Of a stretch of 64,000 nt of DNA, positions 39,957-56,017 are shown piece after piece. Below the pieces are notes generated by a model. The model saw only the letters and a program-made list of their open reading frames with translations, was not told where the DNA came from and did no database searches. Made by a program: the position numbers and the translations under genes. The DNA comes from Planctomycetota bacterium. GTDB lineage: Bacteria; Planctomycetota; Phycisphaerae; Phycisphaerales; UBA1924. Location: assembly GCA_003696675.1 (NCBI GenBank), contig RFGH01000224.1, positions 1-64,000 of the forward strand, read 5' to 3'. The first letter of the stretch is position 1. The number at the start of each line of letters is the position of its first letter.

Positions 39957-42008
39957 ATGAACATTCGTCGCGTGGTCACTGCCACATCCATTTTTGCGGC
40001 GGCCGGCACCGTGCTGGCCCAGCCCGTCGTAGACGGGACCTTCGATCCGGTGACCGAGGGCTCGTTCTACAGCGACATCATCTGGGCGAACAATGTCCCG
40101 ACGGGCTTTGGCAACAACGAGGCCGGCGACTTCTCCGGCGGCAACTTCGGCGACCCCGAGAATGTGACTACGGGCATCGAGATCCGCATCCCGCTGAGCG
40201 CGCTGGGGCTTACCGGCAACGAGACCATTCGGATGGCCGGCTGGGTGAACTCGGGCGACCGGACATTCAAGTCCAACCAGATCATCGGCACGCTGCCGAT
40301 CGATACCCCGAACCTGGGTGGCCCGCAGGACTTCAATGCCCCTCCGCTGGACACGACCACCCAGCACATCTCGGTGGACCTGTCCTCGATCGCAACCGGC
40401 GCCGAAACGGTGGACGGCCTTCTTGATTCCGATGTGATCTACACCCGCGTGTTCCTGCAGCAGAACTACACCGGCTTCGGCAACGAGACCGACGGCACGG
40501 TGGACGGCGCCGGTCCGAACGGCGGCGGCTCCGAGATCGACGCGGTGTACATGGCCAAGAATGGCGGCGATCTGTACATCTTCATCGCCGGCAACCTTGA
40601 GTTCAACGGGAACGGTCTGGACATTTACATCGACACCGGCGCGGGTGGGGACGCTACGCTCGGCTCCGCATCCGGTTCGGGCGGGTTCATCCCCTCCGGC
40701 CAGAGCGGCCTGGTGTTCGATACCGGCTTCGACGCGGACTATGTCCTGTCGATCGACTCAACCGACGACGATGCCGATGGCATGACCCCGAATGTGCCCC
40801 GCGCCTACTTCGGCGGCATCAACTCGGACATCAACCTGCTCGGCACGCTGGCCGGCTATGGCGCCGCGAACGCGGGCGTGCCGACCGGCGGCGACGCCGG
40901 TGTTCCCAGCGTGACGCTCGCGGTGGACAACTCCAACACCGTGGGCGTTGAGGGCAATCCGGCCTCGCCGACTCCGATCGCTCCGGATGCGGATTGGGCG
41001 TATGGCTCGGAGCTGAACAATGTCCGTGCCTATCTGGACACCGCGAACAATCGTCTCTATGTGTTCGTCGGCGCCAACATGGAAGTGAACTACAACAAGG
41101 TCCAGTTCTTCTTCGATGTTCGTCCCGGCGGCCAGAGCACGATCCTGGACACCAATGTTGACATCAGCTTCAACGCGGTGAACAACCAGGCTGGCATCAC
41201 CTTTGATTCCGGTTTCGCCGCTGACTACTGGATGAACTTCAATACTGGCGTTGACGGTGGCACGAACACCGATGTCCGCTTCATGGACTCGACCGTGCTT
41301 CGCACCAACGGCGCCCAATTTGATCCCTTCTTCGGCGTGATCACGGACTACGGCAGCTACTTCGGTGGCGATGTCGCGATCATCGACTTCTCCGGACCGC
41401 GTCTGGACATCCAGGACGGGTCGCTGGGAGGTCTGTATGCCGAGTATGCTCCCCGTCTGATCTCGGACGACGCCTTCAACGGTGTGATCCCGACCGGGAT
41501 CCCCGGGCTGATCACCGTGGCGCTCAATAACTCCAATGTCGGTGGCGTGACCGATACGACGGCCGACTCGAACGCCGTGCGTGCGGTGAACACCGGCATC
41601 GAGTTCTCGATCGATCTGGACGAGCTGGGATGGGACGGCAACCAGGACATCCTGATGGCCGGCTGGATCAGCAACGCCGGCTTCGACTTCATCTCGAATC
41701 AGGTGTTCGGCGGCCTGCCCGCGGGTTCGGCGAATGTCGGCCCGCGTGACACCGACGGGGACGGCGTGGCCGATCTTGACTGGAACTCCATCGCTGGAAC
41801 TCAGTACATCAATCTCACCAATCCGCCCGTGTCGTGCCCGGCCGACCTGGCGGCGCCGTTCGGTGTGCTGAACATCTTCGATATCCAGGCCTTCATCGGT
41901 CTGTACAACACGCAGAACCCGGCCGCCGACCTGGCCGCCCCGTTCGGCGTGTTCAACATCTTCGATATCCAGGCCTATATCGGGCTGTACAACCAGGGCT
42001 GCCCCTAA
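39957..42008 (+). CDS. Large secreted protein with dockerin-like C-terminus
   Basis: 683 residues from MNIRRVVTATSIFAAAGT, signal peptide cut after VLAQ; GAGGGAGACCG precedes the ATG. Acidic, Gly/Asn/Asp-rich, few Lys, no Cys until the tail. Internal repeats: FGNNEAGDFSGGN near residue 40 and a FGNETDG/EIDAVYMAKNGGDLYIFIAGNLE unit that recurs as YGSELNNVRAYLDTANNRLYVFVGANME, so at least two homologous beta-sandwich modules. The last 57 residues (41835-42008) nearly copy the GH13 tail of 25006-25179. No catalytic motif recognised; a surface or glycan-binding structural role is inference. A strong terminator follows. Confidence 0.85.
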   Translation: MNIRRVVTATSIFAAAGTVLAQPVVDGTFDPVTEGSFYSDIIWANNVPTGFGNNEAGDFSGGNFGDPENVTTGIEIRIPLSALGLTGNETIRMAGWVNSGDRTFKSNQIIGTLPIDTPNLGGPQDFNAPPLDTTTQHISVDLSSIATGAETVDGLLDSDVIYTRVFLQQNYTGFGNETDGTVDGAGPNGGGSEIDAVYMAKNGGDLYIFIAGNLEFNGNGLDIYIDTGAGGDATLGSASGSGGFIPSGQSGLVFDTGFDADYVLSIDSTDDDADGMTPNVPRAYFGGINSDINLLGTLAGYGAANAGVPTGGDAGVPSVTLAVDNSNTVGVEGNPASPTPIAPDADWAYGSELNNVRAYLDTANNRLYVFVGANMEVNYNKVQFFFDVRPGGQSTILDTNVDISFNAVNNQAGITFDSGFAADYWMNFNTGVDGGTNTDVRFMDSTVLRTNGAQFDPFFGVITDYGSYFGGDVAIIDFSGPRLDIQDGSLGGLYAEYAPRLISDDAFNGVIPTGIPGLITVALNNSNVGGVTDTTADSNAVRAVNTGIEFSIDLDELGWDGNQDILMAGWISNAGFDFISNQVFGGLPAGSANVGPRDTDGDGVADLDWNSIAGTQYINLTNPPVSCPADLAAPFGVLNIFDIQAFIGLYNTQNPAADLAAPFGVFNIFDIQAYIGLYNQGCP

Positions 42009-50618: not shown

Positions 50619-50707
50619 GGAGAGGTGGCTGAGTGGTTGAAGGCGCACGGCTGGAATCCGTGTTTACGGGGTAACCCGTAACGGGGGTTCGAATCCCCCC
50701 CTCTCCG
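50619..50707 (+). tRNA. tRNA-Ser (anticodon GGA)
   Basis: 89 nt. Acceptor stem GGAGAGG (50619-50625) with CCTCTCC (50700-50706), discriminator G. Anticodon stem CACGG ... CCGTG with loop CTGGAAT, anticodon GGA, reading UCC/UCU. A long variable arm (TTTACGGGGTAACCCGTAA) and the TTCGAATC T-loop fit a class II serine tRNA. CCA is not encoded. Confidence 0.96.
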
Positions 50708-50714
50708 CTTCGAC

Positions 50715-50745
50715 AAGGCCCTGCATCCGCAGGGTCTTGTTGTTT
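50715..50745 (+). terminator. Terminator of tRNA-Ser
   Basis: 10-bp stem with one G-T pair (AAGGCCCTGC with GCAGGGTCTT, loop ATCC), then GTTGTTT. It begins 8 bp after the tRNA. Confidence 0.65.
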
Positions 50746-51325
50746 CAGGGGGGGGTTACTTGTCCTCGATCAGCGGTGCGACGATGGCGTGAGTACGGTG
50801 GTCCGTACGCGCGAGTGTTTGTTGGTGATTGCTAGCTTCTGGCTTCGAGTTGCTTCCGTTCTTGAGTGGCATGCGATATCCGTGTGCTGGTTTGGTAGGG
50901 CTGGATATCGCTCGCTCGTGACATGAATCCAAACCCGGCCAGGACGCGGTCTGACCGGTGTGAGCGGCATGGCGAACTTGGCTGGCAAAGCGAGCGGTTG
51001 AGTGATGGGCCACCGAGTCTGCGGTTCGACAGTGACTTGCTTGTCCCGCGGCGCCGGCATGGTCCTCCGGACACGTGGTGTGTCCACTCATGGGCGGGCG
51101 AGACGATCCGGACCTGGATCTGCCCGTGATTCTGAGGCAGGCGTGTCTCATTGTCGGCAGGCGGGTTCAGAGTCGGGGGGGCAATCATCCCGTGCTGGGG
51201 CGGGCAAGTGAGCGGCGAGGCGAAATCGGCATATGAGTTCTGTTCAGGCTGCAGCAATGGCAGCCGGCGGGAGGTGGATGGCCTCTGAAACCGCGAGAGA
51301 CAGGCCTTCGGGGAGGTTTGGTTTC
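50746..51325. other. Gene-free spacer before the stress cluster
   Basis: About 580 bp without a convincing gene. Open frames exist on both strands but have poor codon bias, no ribosome sites and no family features. The base composition is somewhat less GC-rich than the coding neighbours. It could hold activator sites for the sigma-54-like promoter at 51326 or the worn remains of a gene. Confidence 0.5.
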
Positions 51326-51341
51326 TGGCATGCGATTTGCC
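51326..51341 (+). promoter_or_regulatory. Sigma-54-type promoter of the Hsp20 gene
   Basis: TGGCATG-CGAT-TTGC, against consensus TGGCACR-N4-TTGCW. The invariant GG (51327-51328) and GC (51339-51340) are 12 bp apart as required. Transcription would start near 51352, leaving a leader of about 56 nt that ends in TAAGGAGGTG before the ATG. Confidence 0.55.
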
Positions 51342-51407
51342 GAATATTTTCTGCCCCTATGGGCGTGAGTTGCTTTCGCACGAACCATGTTTGTAAGGAG
51401 GTGGCAC

Positions 51408-51923
51408 ATGCTCAGCATCTTCCCCAACACGATCCCCGGCTTGAGCCGAAACTCGGTCTTCGGGCAGATCGCCCGCGACATGGACAGGTTGTTTGAATCG
51501 GTCGCGACCCGTCCGATGGTTGACTCAGCCTCCCGTACCTGGCCGGGCATGAATGTCTGGCGTGATGGCGACGACATTGTCGCCGAGGCCGAGATTCCGG
51601 GCTTCCGGATGGAGGACATTGAGGTTCTCGCGACCGAGCACATGCTGACGATTCGCGGGCAGCGGCGGAGCTCAACGCCTGAGAACGCCACAGCCCTTCG
51701 TATTGAGCGTTCGGTCAGCCGCTTCGAGCGGTCGCTGCACCTGCCGGTTGAGATCGACCCAGACCGTGTGCGTGCGACCCTGGCCGATGGCGTGCTGCGT
51801 GTCACGCTGCCGGTCGCGGAGGCGGCTCGTCCGAGGCGTGTGCAGATTCAGTCGCTGGCTTCGACCCCGGCGCGTGAGGCTCTGCCCACCTCGCCGGTGT
51901 CGCAAGCCGAGGCGACGGCCTGA
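51408..51923 (+). CDS. Small heat-shock protein Hsp20 (first of two)
   Basis: 171 residues. An exceptionally strong ribosome site (TAAGGAGGTG) precedes the ATG. The alpha-crystallin domain runs from about residue 45 to 145: WRDGDDIVAEAEIPGFRMEDIEVLA, LTIRGQRRS, FERSLHLPVEIDPDRVRATLADGVLRVTLP. The GVLRVTLP motif is diagnostic. A holdase that binds unfolding proteins. It heads the stress cluster, 36 bp before a microprotein gene. Confidence 0.95.
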   Translation: MLSIFPNTIPGLSRNSVFGQIARDMDRLFESVATRPMVDSASRTWPGMNVWRDGDDIVAEAEIPGFRMEDIEVLATEHMLTIRGQRRSSTPENATALRIERSVSRFERSLHLPVEIDPDRVRATLADGVLRVTLPVAEAARPRRVQIQSLASTPAREALPTSPVSQAEATA

Positions 51924-51959
51924 GCGTATCTCGCGCATCTTAGACGAAGGAGTTTCACC

Positions 51960-52100
51960 ATGAGCAACGCCGCCGTGGCGAACGATGCCACTCGCACCGA
52001 ACGCAGGGGCTGGCTCGGGCGGTGGAAGCCCAAGCTCCCTTCGTTCGGACGGAAGAACCGCAATCAGGCAAGGCAGTCCAAGGAGACGAAGAAGGAGTGA
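51960..52100 (+). CDS. 46-residue basic microprotein between two Hsp20 genes
   Basis: ATG at 51960 with GAAGGAG 6 nt upstream, stop at 52098-52100. Sequence begins MSNAAVANDATRTERRGW and ends RQSKETKKE, strongly basic, with a central RGWLGRWKPKLPSFGRKN patch. The next Hsp20 ribosome site (AAGGAGTG) lies within its last codons, so the two are coupled. No known family recognised. Too short for most gene finders. Could bind nucleic acid or modulate the chaperones; this is speculation. Confidence 0.65.
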   Translation: MSNAAVANDATRTERRGWLGRWKPKLPSFGRKNRNQARQSKETKKE

Positions 52101-52105
52101 TCATC

Positions 52106-52531
52106 ATGGCTGACAACGGCAACGGATGCTGCTCGGCCATTGAGCAGCGAGACAATGTGACCGCCATCCAGAACACCCAATCGCACGGCAAGACGAGCGA
52201 TGTGACCTATCGGCCACCGCTGGATCTGTACGACCTCGGCGATCGCTACGAGATTCAGTTCGATGTGCCCGGGACGACAGCGGAAGCGATCGAAGTGACG
52301 GTCCACGATCAGGTTCTTACGGTGGAGGCCCGCGTCCAGGCCCGTTACCCGGGAAACATCACGCCGCTGCTCGGCGAGTACGGCGTGGGCGACTTCCGCC
52401 GGCAGGTCCGGCTGGGTGAAGACATCGATAGCCAGTCGCTGAGCGCGATCTACACCGACGGGGTGCTGACGCTGAGCCTGCCGAAGCGGGCCGAGCGCCA
52501 GCCGCGGCGGATCGAGGTGCGTGCGGGCTAA
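52106..52531 (+). CDS. Small heat-shock protein Hsp20 (second)
   Basis: 141 residues from MADNGNGCCSAIEQRD, 5 bp after the microprotein stop, with AAGGAG in its end. Alpha-crystallin domain from about residue 38: DLYDLGDRYEIQFDVPGTTAEAIEVTVHDQVLTVEARV, then FRRQVRLGEDIDSQSLSAIYTDGVLTLSLPK. The N-terminus is short and carries a CC pair. Different enough from the first Hsp20 to suggest a heteromeric pair. Confidence 0.93.
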   Translation: MADNGNGCCSAIEQRDNVTAIQNTQSHGKTSDVTYRPPLDLYDLGDRYEIQFDVPGTTAEAIEVTVHDQVLTVEARVQARYPGNITPLLGEYGVGDFRRQVRLGEDIDSQSLSAIYTDGVLTLSLPKRAERQPRRIEVRAG

Positions 52532-52565
52532 GACGAGCGGCTTGGATGTCCGTGATATCGAAACA

Positions 52566-52591
52566 CGCCCCGGCCCGAGAGTACCGGGGCG
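52566..52591 (+). repeat. GC hairpin between the Hsp20 and htrA genes
   Basis: CGCCCCGG (52566-52573) with CCGGGGCG (52584-52591), 10-nt loop. No T-run follows, so a weak terminator at best. It lies 34 bp after the Hsp20 stop. Confidence 0.35.
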
Positions 52592-52634
52592 CGGTTGATA
52601 AGCGATCTGCATGTTCGGCGAAAGGAGGTTCCAG

Positions 52635-54143
52635 ATGATGACTCGCCATCGTTCTCTGGTCACCGGTCTCACGGCGGTCCTCGGGATCGCTGTCCTGTTC
52701 GTAACGCCTCCTGTCATCGCGCATACGAGTGTCAGCCCGGGCGACCTCGATCGTGCGCTCACACTCGCTGATGATCTTTCGGTTGCGTTCGAGCATGCGG
52801 CGGATGTGGTGTCACCCTCGGTCGTCAATGTCCGTGCCACGATGCGCGTTCAACCCGCGAACGGCGTACAGCAGTTCCGTGGGTTCGAGAGCCCATTCGG
52901 GAACTCGCCATTCCGTGAGTTCTTTGGCGATGACTTCTTTGATCGATTCCAAGCACCACTGCCGCGTTCGGGAGAACTCCTCCGACAAGGCCAGGGTACT
53001 GGTTTCGTCGTCTCTGAGGACGGTTACATTCTCACCAACAACCATGTGGTTGAAAACGCGACCGAAATCACCGTGCAGTTCAGCGAGAGGGCTGGCTCTC
53101 GCACTGAGTATACGGCCGAGGTTGTCGGGACCGATCCCGCGACCGATCTTGCGCTGCTCAAGATCGACGCAACAGGGCTCACGCCGGTCGAGTTCGCCGA
53201 TTCCGACGCGGTCCGTATCGGACAATGGGTTATCGCTGTGGGTAACCCGTTCGGGCTGGAGTCTACGATCACAGCGGGCATTGTGAGCGCTATGGGAAGG
53301 ACGCGCGTCGGGATCACCGATTACGAAAACTTCATCCAGACCGACGCGGCGATCAACCCCGGCAACTCCGGCGGTCCGTTGGTCGATCTGCGAGGGCGCG
53401 TCATTGGTGTGAACACCGCGATCGCCACACGGAGTGGTGGCAACATGGGCATCGGCTTCGCCATCCCGAGCAACCTTGCCAGATCGATCATGGACAGCCT
53501 TCGCGACAATGGCATCGTCACTCGCGGCTGGCTCGGCGTCATGATCCAGGATCTAGACGAAGGGCTTGCACAGTCCTTCGACTTTGAGGGTACCGAAGGC
53601 GTGCTCATCTCGCAGGTCCAAAAGGGCAGCCCGGCGGACGATGCCGGCCTGCGTGTCGGCGACATTATCACCAAGTTCAACGGTGAGCCGCTGGCCCGCG
53701 TGGACCAGCTCCGGCTGCGCGTTGCTGCGACCGATCCCGGCGACAAGGTGGACATCGTTGTATTCCGCGACGGGCGCGAGCGAACGATCAAGGTCGAAAT
53801 CGGTGAGCTTGAGCAGGAGGCACCCGTTGCTACATCAGGCTCATTCGTGGATACGCTCGGGATGCAACTCCGTGATCTCGATAGCGCAATCGCATCGCAA
53901 CTGGGCATCGAAACCGAATCCGGCGTGGTTGTCACCGATGTCGAGCCGTTCAGTCCGGCTGCACGGGCTGGCCTTCGTTCCCGCGATGTGATCACGCATG
54001 TCCAAGGCGAGCCGGTTGACAGCGTCCGTGATTTCCGTCGCGAACTCCAAAGTCGAGACCTGGATCGAGGTGTGCGGCTCACGGTTGTCTCTGGCGAGGC
54101 CCAGCGGTTCGTGTTCCTGCGAGTACCGAAGGATCGGGGCTGA
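52635..54143 (+). CDS. HtrA/DegP-type periplasmic serine protease
   Basis: 502 residues from ATG 52635, with AAAGGAGGT 7 nt upstream, a near-perfect ribosome site. Signal segment 1-30. Trypsin-like domain: ILTNNHVV (His137), DPATDLALLKID (Asp171), NPGNSGGPL (Ser245). Two PDZ domains follow (GWLGVMIQDLDEGLA..., and GMQLRDLDSAIASQLGIE...). A chaperone-protease for misfolded envelope proteins. Same-strand neighbour of two Hsp20 genes. A terminator follows at 54204. Confidence 0.95.
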   Translation: MMTRHRSLVTGLTAVLGIAVLFVTPPVIAHTSVSPGDLDRALTLADDLSVAFEHAADVVSPSVVNVRATMRVQPANGVQQFRGFESPFGNSPFREFFGDDFFDRFQAPLPRSGELLRQGQGTGFVVSEDGYILTNNHVVENATEITVQFSERAGSRTEYTAEVVGTDPATDLALLKIDATGLTPVEFADSDAVRIGQWVIAVGNPFGLESTITAGIVSAMGRTRVGITDYENFIQTDAAINPGNSGGPLVDLRGRVIGVNTAIATRSGGNMGIGFAIPSNLARSIMDSLRDNGIVTRGWLGVMIQDLDEGLAQSFDFEGTEGVLISQVQKGSPADDAGLRVGDIITKFNGEPLARVDQLRLRVAATDPGDKVDIVVFRDGRERTIKVEIGELEQEAPVATSGSFVDTLGMQLRDLDSAIASQLGIETESGVVVTDVEPFSPAARAGLRSRDVITHVQGEPVDSVRDFRRELQSRDLDRGVRLTVVSGEAQRFVFLRVPKDRG

Positions 54144-54698: not shown

Positions 54699-55751
54699 AT
54701 GGATATACCCGACTACTACAGCGCACTTGGGGTCAGCGAGTCAGCATCTCCGGACGAGATCAAGCGGGCGTTTCGTGCGCTCGCCAAGCAGTATCATCCC
54801 GACAGCTATGTCGGGGATGACCCCAGCGGAGCTGAGCAGCGCTTCAAGCGAGCGAGCGAGGCGTATGAGGTGCTCAGCGATCCTGAGCGTCGAAAGACAT
54901 ATGACCAGATCAGGCGGGGTGGGTTCGACTCAAGGGGACATGGCGGGCAACGAGGCGCTCCTACTGGATCTACCCGGACGATGTCCCCCGAGGAGTTTGA
55001 GGAAATATTCGGGCGAGGTGGATTCTCCGACTTCTTCGCCTCGGCGTTCGGCGAGAGCTTTGCGCGTCAGGCTGGGAAGAGAAGCCGAACACATGCTCGC
55101 TATCGAACCCGTGGCGCGGACATCGAGGCCGTGCTCACGATCCCCGTCCGCGATGTATTTCAGCCGGGAAAGAGGAGCTTCCAGATCGCAGGGTCGAAGC
55201 CCTGTGAGTCCTGCGGCGGGGTCGGCTTCCTCGACAACGGTCATGTTTGCCCCGCCTGCGCCGGAATCGGCCACACGCGAGTGATGAAGTCGGTCGAAAT
55301 CAAGCTGCCGTCGGAGCTGCGAGACGGTCAGGTGATGCGTCTCCGAGGCCTCGGAGAGCCCGGCTCCGCGGGGGCGCCTGCTGGCGATCTGCTGCTCACG
55401 ATCCGGATCGAGGATGATGACAAGTTCCGGGTTTTAGGCGATGACATCGAAGCCGACCTGCCCGTCACGCCGTGGGAGGCGGCGCTCGGAGCCGAAGTCG
55501 CGGTCACGGCGCCAGATGGAACTCGGCTCAGTGTCAAGGTTCCGGCCGGGACACGGTCCGGCGCACGGCTTCGCGTCAGGGGCAAAGGGCTTTACACATC
55601 CGACAAGGGGCGTGGTGACCTCTACCTTCGCATCAGTCTCACCATGCCTGAGCATCTTACCGATCGCCAGCGCGACCTCCTTCGACAGCTCGCTGAGTCC
55701 GATTCTCAGCCCATCAGCGGTGGTGCACGCATGCCGGGAGCGTGGGCATGA
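54699..55751 (+). CDS. DnaJ/CbpA-like co-chaperone with reduced zinc finger
   Basis: 350 residues from MDIPDYYSALGVSES. J domain residues 1-70 with HPD (AKQYHPDSY), then a Gly/Phe-rich linker (FGRGGFSDFFASAFGESF). Residues of about 170-190 hold two CxxCxGxG-type units (CESCGGVGF, CPACAGIGH) instead of the four of DnaJ; CbpA has none. Two C-terminal beta domains follow (VEIKLPSELRDGQVMRLRGLG, DLYLRISLTMPEHLT). It should activate DnaK. Its stop overlaps the start of the CbpM-like gene. Confidence 0.92.
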   Translation: MDIPDYYSALGVSESASPDEIKRAFRALAKQYHPDSYVGDDPSGAEQRFKRASEAYEVLSDPERRKTYDQIRRGGFDSRGHGGQRGAPTGSTRTMSPEEFEEIFGRGGFSDFFASAFGESFARQAGKRSRTHARYRTRGADIEAVLTIPVRDVFQPGKRSFQIAGSKPCESCGGVGFLDNGHVCPACAGIGHTRVMKSVEIKLPSELRDGQVMRLRGLGEPGSAGAPAGDLLLTIRIEDDDKFRVLGDDIEADLPVTPWEAALGAEVAVTAPDGTRLSVKVPAGTRSGARLRVRGKGLYTSDKGRGDLYLRISLTMPEHLTDRQRDLLRQLAESDSQPISGGARMPGAWA

Positions 55752-56017
55752 CAGAGATCCGCTACATCATGAAGGATGACAGGCAGTATGTCTTCGTGCG
55801 CGAGATCATTGAGGTGTTCTCCATCGACAGAATCGACCTCGATCGGTGGACGGTTGCCGGTTTCATTGAATCCCCCGTCTTGATCGACGGCGAACCGGCT
55901 TACGAGGCAACCGTTCTCGACCAGATCACGCTCGTCATTCGATGGACGCGGCATTTGGGCATGGACGAGATGCAGATCAAGTACTCATTGCGTGTTCGGC
56001 AGCCCGGATCACGATGA
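55748..56017 (+). CDS. CbpM-like modulator of the DnaJ-type chaperone
   Basis: 89 residues, ATG overlapping the dnaJ stop (ATGA). Predicted helical with a MerR-like N-terminal helix-turn: YVFVREIIEVFSIDRIDLDRW, VAGFIESP, then TVLDQITLVIRWTRHLGMDEMQIKYSLRVR. The gene order (dnaJ-like then small MerR-like) copies E. coli cbpA-cbpM, whose product inhibits the J protein. Sequence likeness is weak, so the call leans on context. Confidence 0.6.
   Translation: MTEIRYIMKDDRQYVFVREIIEVFSIDRIDLDRWTVAGFIESPVLIDGEPAYEATVLDQITLVIRWTRHLGMDEMQIKYSLRVRQPGSR

Follow-up and report, generated by a model that had tools for sequence, protein, structure and literature searches.

The hsp20 cluster and its upstream region

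The window, by which is meant the whole 64-kb stretch of planctomycete DNA analysed here, carries a cluster of stress genes whose features, from the upstream candidate sites to the protease gene, are as follows.

51249 to 51263, forward strand: candidate activator-binding site (UAS), CTGCAG-CAA-TGGCAG, scored at 10.2 bits by a matrix trained on relatives; no binding data
51326 to 51340, forward strand: sigma-54 promoter, with its -24 element TGGCATG at 51326-51332, its -12 element TTGC at 51337-51340 and a predicted +1 at about 51352
51395 to 51403, forward strand: Shine-Dalgarno sequence AAGGAGGTG, read directly
51408 to 51923, forward strand: first hsp20 gene, 171 aa, ATG at 51408-51410 (PF00011, E 7.4e-21)
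51960 to 52100, forward strand: 46-aa basic open reading frame with its own good Shine-Dalgarno sequence, between both hsp20 genes, read directly
52106 to 52531, forward strand: second hsp20 gene (PF00011, E 2.1e-16)
52611 to 54143, forward strand: HtrA/DegP-type protease (PF13365 and PDZ domains)

Upstream, a tRNA-Ser gene occupies 50619-50708, and no obvious gene lies between it and hsp20. The 46-aa open reading frame probably shares the hsp20 transcript, of which the protease gene is possibly the last member, the operon being inferred from a gap of 79 nt. Further downstream there is a DnaJ-type gene at 54699-56017 (DnaJ and DnaJ_C domains, with MDIPDYY chosen as its start), followed by a 91-aa open reading frame that lacks a Pfam hit and may encode a CbpM-like modulator. 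The preliminary description of this DNA had called the hsp20 ribosome site near-perfect; it is in fact perfect, since AAGGAGGTG matches the usual anti-Shine-Dalgarno sequence at 9/9 positions. Because Rfam matched tRNA only, no known RNA thermometer is present at gathering score.

The putative promoter, TGGCATGCGATTTGC (TGGCATG-CGAT-TTGC), begins 82 nt 5' of the hsp20 ATG. Its GG (51327-51328) and GC (51339-51340) are ten bases apart, as sigma-54 requires, which bears out the earlier claim of a correctly spaced -24/-12 pattern in front of hsp20. The pattern TGGCAY-N5-TTGC has this one match on both strands of the window, against 0.13-0.38 expected, and with a weight matrix trained on relatives only, position 51326 is the top-scoring one of the 64 kb at 17.3 bits, a value reached about 0.11 times per 128 kb of Markov sequence. 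The runner-up of that scan, at 41192, falls within an open reading frame and is taken as a chance match. No sigma-70-like promoter was found in 50700-52700. The presence of rpoN, on which the proposal depended, is met by one copy in the window's genome (PF04552, E 4e-62; also PF04963 and PF00309). Though there is neither a mapped start site nor RNA data, it is very probable that 51326-51340 is a genuine sigma-54 promoter, part of a phylum-wide chaperone regulon. As a separate observation, TGGCATGCGATATCC at 50867-50881, 459 nt upstream, is a copy of the promoter's first 11 bases without the -12 element.

The suggestion that the gene-free stretch further upstream could carry enhancer sites has also been fruitful, for an activator-like site is found at 51249-51263. 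In comparison with CTGCCA-N3-TGGCAG, the palindrome of relatives, its right half is perfect and its left half degenerate. The best palindrome match within 51100-51320 falls at 51250 and has the 10.2 bits already given, with the training median being near 20. It stands 76 nt before the T of the -24 element, a spacing common before hsp20 in relatives, and palindrome and promoter together score 27.5 bits, which was reached by 0 of 12 million Markov positions. The matrices were built from 80 promoters and 78 palindromes of relatives alone, with the window and its genome's own dnaK and groEL outside the training. Circularity affects the matrix scores of the relatives, whose training sites were picked by consensus, but not the scores of the window or of its genome's dnaK and groEL.

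Promoter and palindrome in relatives and across the phylum

Conservation of the -24/-12 elements before related hsp20 genes had been proposed as a check, and it holds at 25 of 30 loci, where at least 10/11 positions of TGGCACG-N4-TTGC are present within 300 nt upstream. These loci represent one per genome, own included, with 44/61 genomes having yielded a hit. In six control stretches taken from these loci the count was 0/30 every time, and with Markov shuffles the mean was 0.15. Most of the hsp20 loci also have TGYCA-N3-TGRCA, placed 53-132 nt upstream of the -24 element, and the CTGCCA-N3-TGGCAG palindrome lies some 50-140 nt upstream of the promoter in relatives. There are exceptions: L026 and L036 are without both elements, L028 has a weak palindrome, and L033, from a genome (G058) with a single activator, has a strong promoter without a palindrome.

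For dnaK, upstream regions were taken from 54 of the 57 relatives with a hit, own dnaK being excluded and those of G022, G027 and G029 being left out, their upstream being off the contig or the gene partial. Promoter matches at 9/11 positions or better occur in 52/54 (3.5 in shuffles, 3 on the reverse strand), and each of the 54 has a palindrome of at least 8/10 no more than 200 nt upstream of the -24 element. A related-pattern search of the 61 relatives gave 17 sites, its reversed control 3; the neighbours are hsp20 (10), dnaK (2), groEL (2), clpC (1) and htpX (1), with the remaining site, L070, inside another coding sequence. The genes here were named by eye, except that eight of the hsp20 cases were recognized by coordinates shared with the hsp20 locus set.

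In the window's genome itself, dnaK (C196:8157) and groEL (C147:66012) each have the promoter and a perfect palindrome, with combined scores of 41.1 and 42.6 bits, respectively. The flagellar sigma-54 site before its flgB is of a different kind, having a promoter without a palindrome and only 9.7 bits.

Palindrome-promoter spacings track the DNA helix at a period of 10.5 bp (R 0.50; n=74 once one genus had been thinned), with a nominal p of 8e-9 that is too small given the relatedness of the sequences, and the window's spacing is within 1 bp of the mean helical phase.

How far does the arrangement extend? A search blind to genes, in which the composite pattern CTGCCR-N3-YGGCAG, 45-105 nt, TGGCAY-N5-TTG was sought in 343 Planctomycetota genomes, found matches in 50 of them, against one for the reversed pattern. 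Two of the sites are the window genome's own. All 30 loci read adjoin chaperone or Clp genes: dnaK at 10, groEL at 11, groES at two, hsp20 at three (L165 among them), clpC at two, htpG at one and a divergent dnaJ at one (L167), the identities being from Pfam except for L177, which was by eye. The idea that an activator-dependent sigma factor drives stress genes is thus supported and its scope widened: as far as can be judged from sequence, the arrangement recurs across the phylum, beside dnaJ and in front of dnaK, groEL, groES, hsp20, htpG and clpC, and a reading confined to hsp20 is too narrow. Since only 50/343 genomes match the strict composite pattern, a rule for the whole phylum is not thereby demonstrated.

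A candidate activator

A sigma-54 promoter calls for an activator, and an enhancer-binding protein had been looked for nearby. That expectation was disappointed, as none of the four strong enhancer-binding proteins of the window's genome is encoded inside the window; the best candidate would act in trans, from contig C100.

G000:C100:12692-14113: candidate activator (L003), a receiver-AAA+-Fis HTH protein (PF00072, PF00158, PF02954)

Activators of this type have Asp53 in 8/8 and GAFTGA in 7/8, with GAYTGA in the other. Could the promoter and palindrome be real and be served by another enhancer-binding protein, of the genome's own L004 or L005 type, or by several that share sites? There are four to choose from and no binding data single out the C100 protein, and yet we consider this improbable. 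One of the others, L002, adjoins flgB and is for that reason probably flagellar, and close relatives of the L005 type (>380 bits) are present in at most 22/60 relatives. G042, G050, G054 and G058 encode only one PF00158 protein apiece (at E 1e-30 or better), which is orthologous to L003 and not of the L004 type, and all four keep the regulon, with palindrome and promoter before dnaK. Relatives of L003 at that closeness are in single copy in 60/61 genomes. One genome, G022, is without the chaperone activator and has one enhancer-binding protein, of the L004 type; its assembly is 91% complete, and the region upstream of its dnaK falls outside the contig.

The linkage of activator to dnaK in family f38 is a further argument against another protein having this role. 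Eight genomes of the family have the composite site, and in six of these it precedes dnaK on the contig that also holds the activator: in four it immediately follows the activator gene, and in two a distance of 1.7-2.0 kb separates activator from dnaK. The remaining two genomes have activator and site on separate contigs. The gene order is kinase-activator-palindrome-promoter-dnaK, with a histidine kinase H-box before the activator in 6/6 loci, and Pfam identifies HisKA and HATPase_c in L222 and, in the part of L219 covered, HATPase_c. (In L219 and L222 an ABC transporter ATPase gene, recognized by eye, comes after the activator-dnaK cluster.) Among the loci of the order that were read, none has a kinase adjoining the activator.

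A single clade of 18 (support 0.996) unites the activators of the order and of f38 with that of Ca. Brocadia; it excludes the other three enhancer-binding proteins of the window's genome and has a nearly constant recognition helix, GERTLYRK. Two phylum loci, L209 and L211, are missing from the tree, having given no sequence. Among named activators the nearest are those of Ca. Brocadia and, for the flagellar protein, of a Phycisphaerae genome, from which the window's genome was inferred to be planctomycete, probably of class Phycisphaerae. The named loci had been drawn in by unspecific peptide patterns, and of six examined only L224 (Ca. Brocadia sp. WS118) is in the activator clade; the flanks of L224 have neither dnaK nor the palindrome.

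At a threshold of 1e-120 the L003 profile is matched in 266/343 genomes of the phylum, comprising 49/50 of those with the composite site and 217/293 of those without (Fisher p 3e-5). These last fractions were counted by hand, and the threshold may admit paralogues.

Proposed heat-shock control by sigma-54

The following scheme, for which there are no expression or binding data, is one in which we have considerable confidence. hsp20 would be transcribed from 51326-51340 by RNA polymerase carrying sigma-54, the closed complex waiting for an NtrC-type activator at the palindrome about 76 nt upstream. The activator, probably the C100 protein, which groups with the kinase-linked f38 activator before dnaK, would contact the closed complex via DNA looping and open it with the use of ATP. 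The same palindrome and promoter precede the genome's own groEL and dnaK, from which it follows that one activator would switch on the chaperones as a single regulon. The sequences themselves, and as yet nothing else, show the promoter, the palindrome and their spacing, the regulon, the conservation of the activator and its linkage to dnaK; it is by inference that the activator binds the palindrome, that phosphorylation activates it and that the signal is heat or misfolded protein.

The likeness to NtrB/NtrC, with kinase, receiver-AAA+-Fis activator, palindromic enhancer and sigma-54, is plain, but the targets here are chaperones, the palindrome is another one and the order's loci that were read lack a kinase beside the activator. 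The sigma-32 and HrcA/CIRCE systems have the same target genes as this regulon; they differ from it in the sigma factor and in regulating by sigma level or repressor instead of by an activator. E. coli ibpB, which encodes a small heat-shock protein, has been reported to have a sigma-54 promoter alongside sigma-32 control, whereas the sites here belong to the core regulon, with an activator site in common. Might heat shock here too be mainly the business of sigma-32, with the sigma-54 sites serving a side response? The presence of RpoH was not assessed in these genomes, and CCCCTAT near 51354 has what we take to be a faint resemblance to a sigma-32 -10 element. Nevertheless this is an explanation to which we give little credence. 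The sigma-54 element is at 52/54 dnaK genes, and besides the want of a sigma-70-like promoter around hsp20, HrcA was found in 0/61 relatives (with a control search positive in 7/14) and CIRCE before the 54 dnaK genes no more than in shuffles. That 51326-51342 is merely a weak terminator-like hairpin (TGGCA...TGCCG and then TTTT; the region yielded three terminator-like hits, this among them) matching sigma-54 by chance can hardly be entertained, for it has five pairs only, its -24/-12 elements are kept at most of the hsp20 loci and no such T run follows them in the relatives' sequences viewed.

Returning to sigma-54 and its activator, it seems reasonably probable, with the reservation about RpoH just made, that in most of the Planctomycetota core heat shock (dnaK, groEL, groES, dnaJ, hsp20, clpC, htpG and htpX) is run by sigma-54 together with a single dedicated NtrC-type activator at CTGCCA-N3-TGGCAG, fed by a histidine kinase, an ATP-gated two-component switch instead of a heat-shock sigma factor or repressor. 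If so, sigma-54 moves from specialized functions to the core protein-folding response of a whole phylum. This wiring differs from the textbook ones, and with activator, site and promoter named, planctomycete control becomes directly testable.

Studholme and Dixon reportedly catalogued in 2004 the sigma-54 enhancer-binding proteins of Pirellula sp. strain 1 and their possible targets. That work may overlap with the present one; a printed palindrome or activator for planctomycete chaperones was not found in the literature, nor did a search for the palindrome sequence as text give a match. Sigma-54 promoters have been predicted in silico to be enriched before GroEL, IbpA, GroES, GrpE, DnaJ and DnaK in Planctomycetota, mostly in Planctomycetia and less in Phycisphaerae (PLoS One 2025, PMC12316311), but the parts of that paper available to us contain no upstream activator site and no chaperone activator. 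In a heat array of R. baltica, so far as our partial view of the report extends, ClpB, GroEL, DnaJ, GrpE, Hsp20 and DnaK were induced, rpoH is present, rpoH, rpoE and rpoN were not regulated on heating, and its authors wrote of a significantly different response cascade (PMC2754498). A sigma-54/activator switch, if real, would explain chaperone induction there despite rpoN and rpoH not having been seen to be regulated.

A minor observation concerns groEL in the window's genome: at L080 (G000:C147:60000-68000) groES is flanked by two groEL-like genes, and it is before the first of these that the promoter and perfect palindrome stand.
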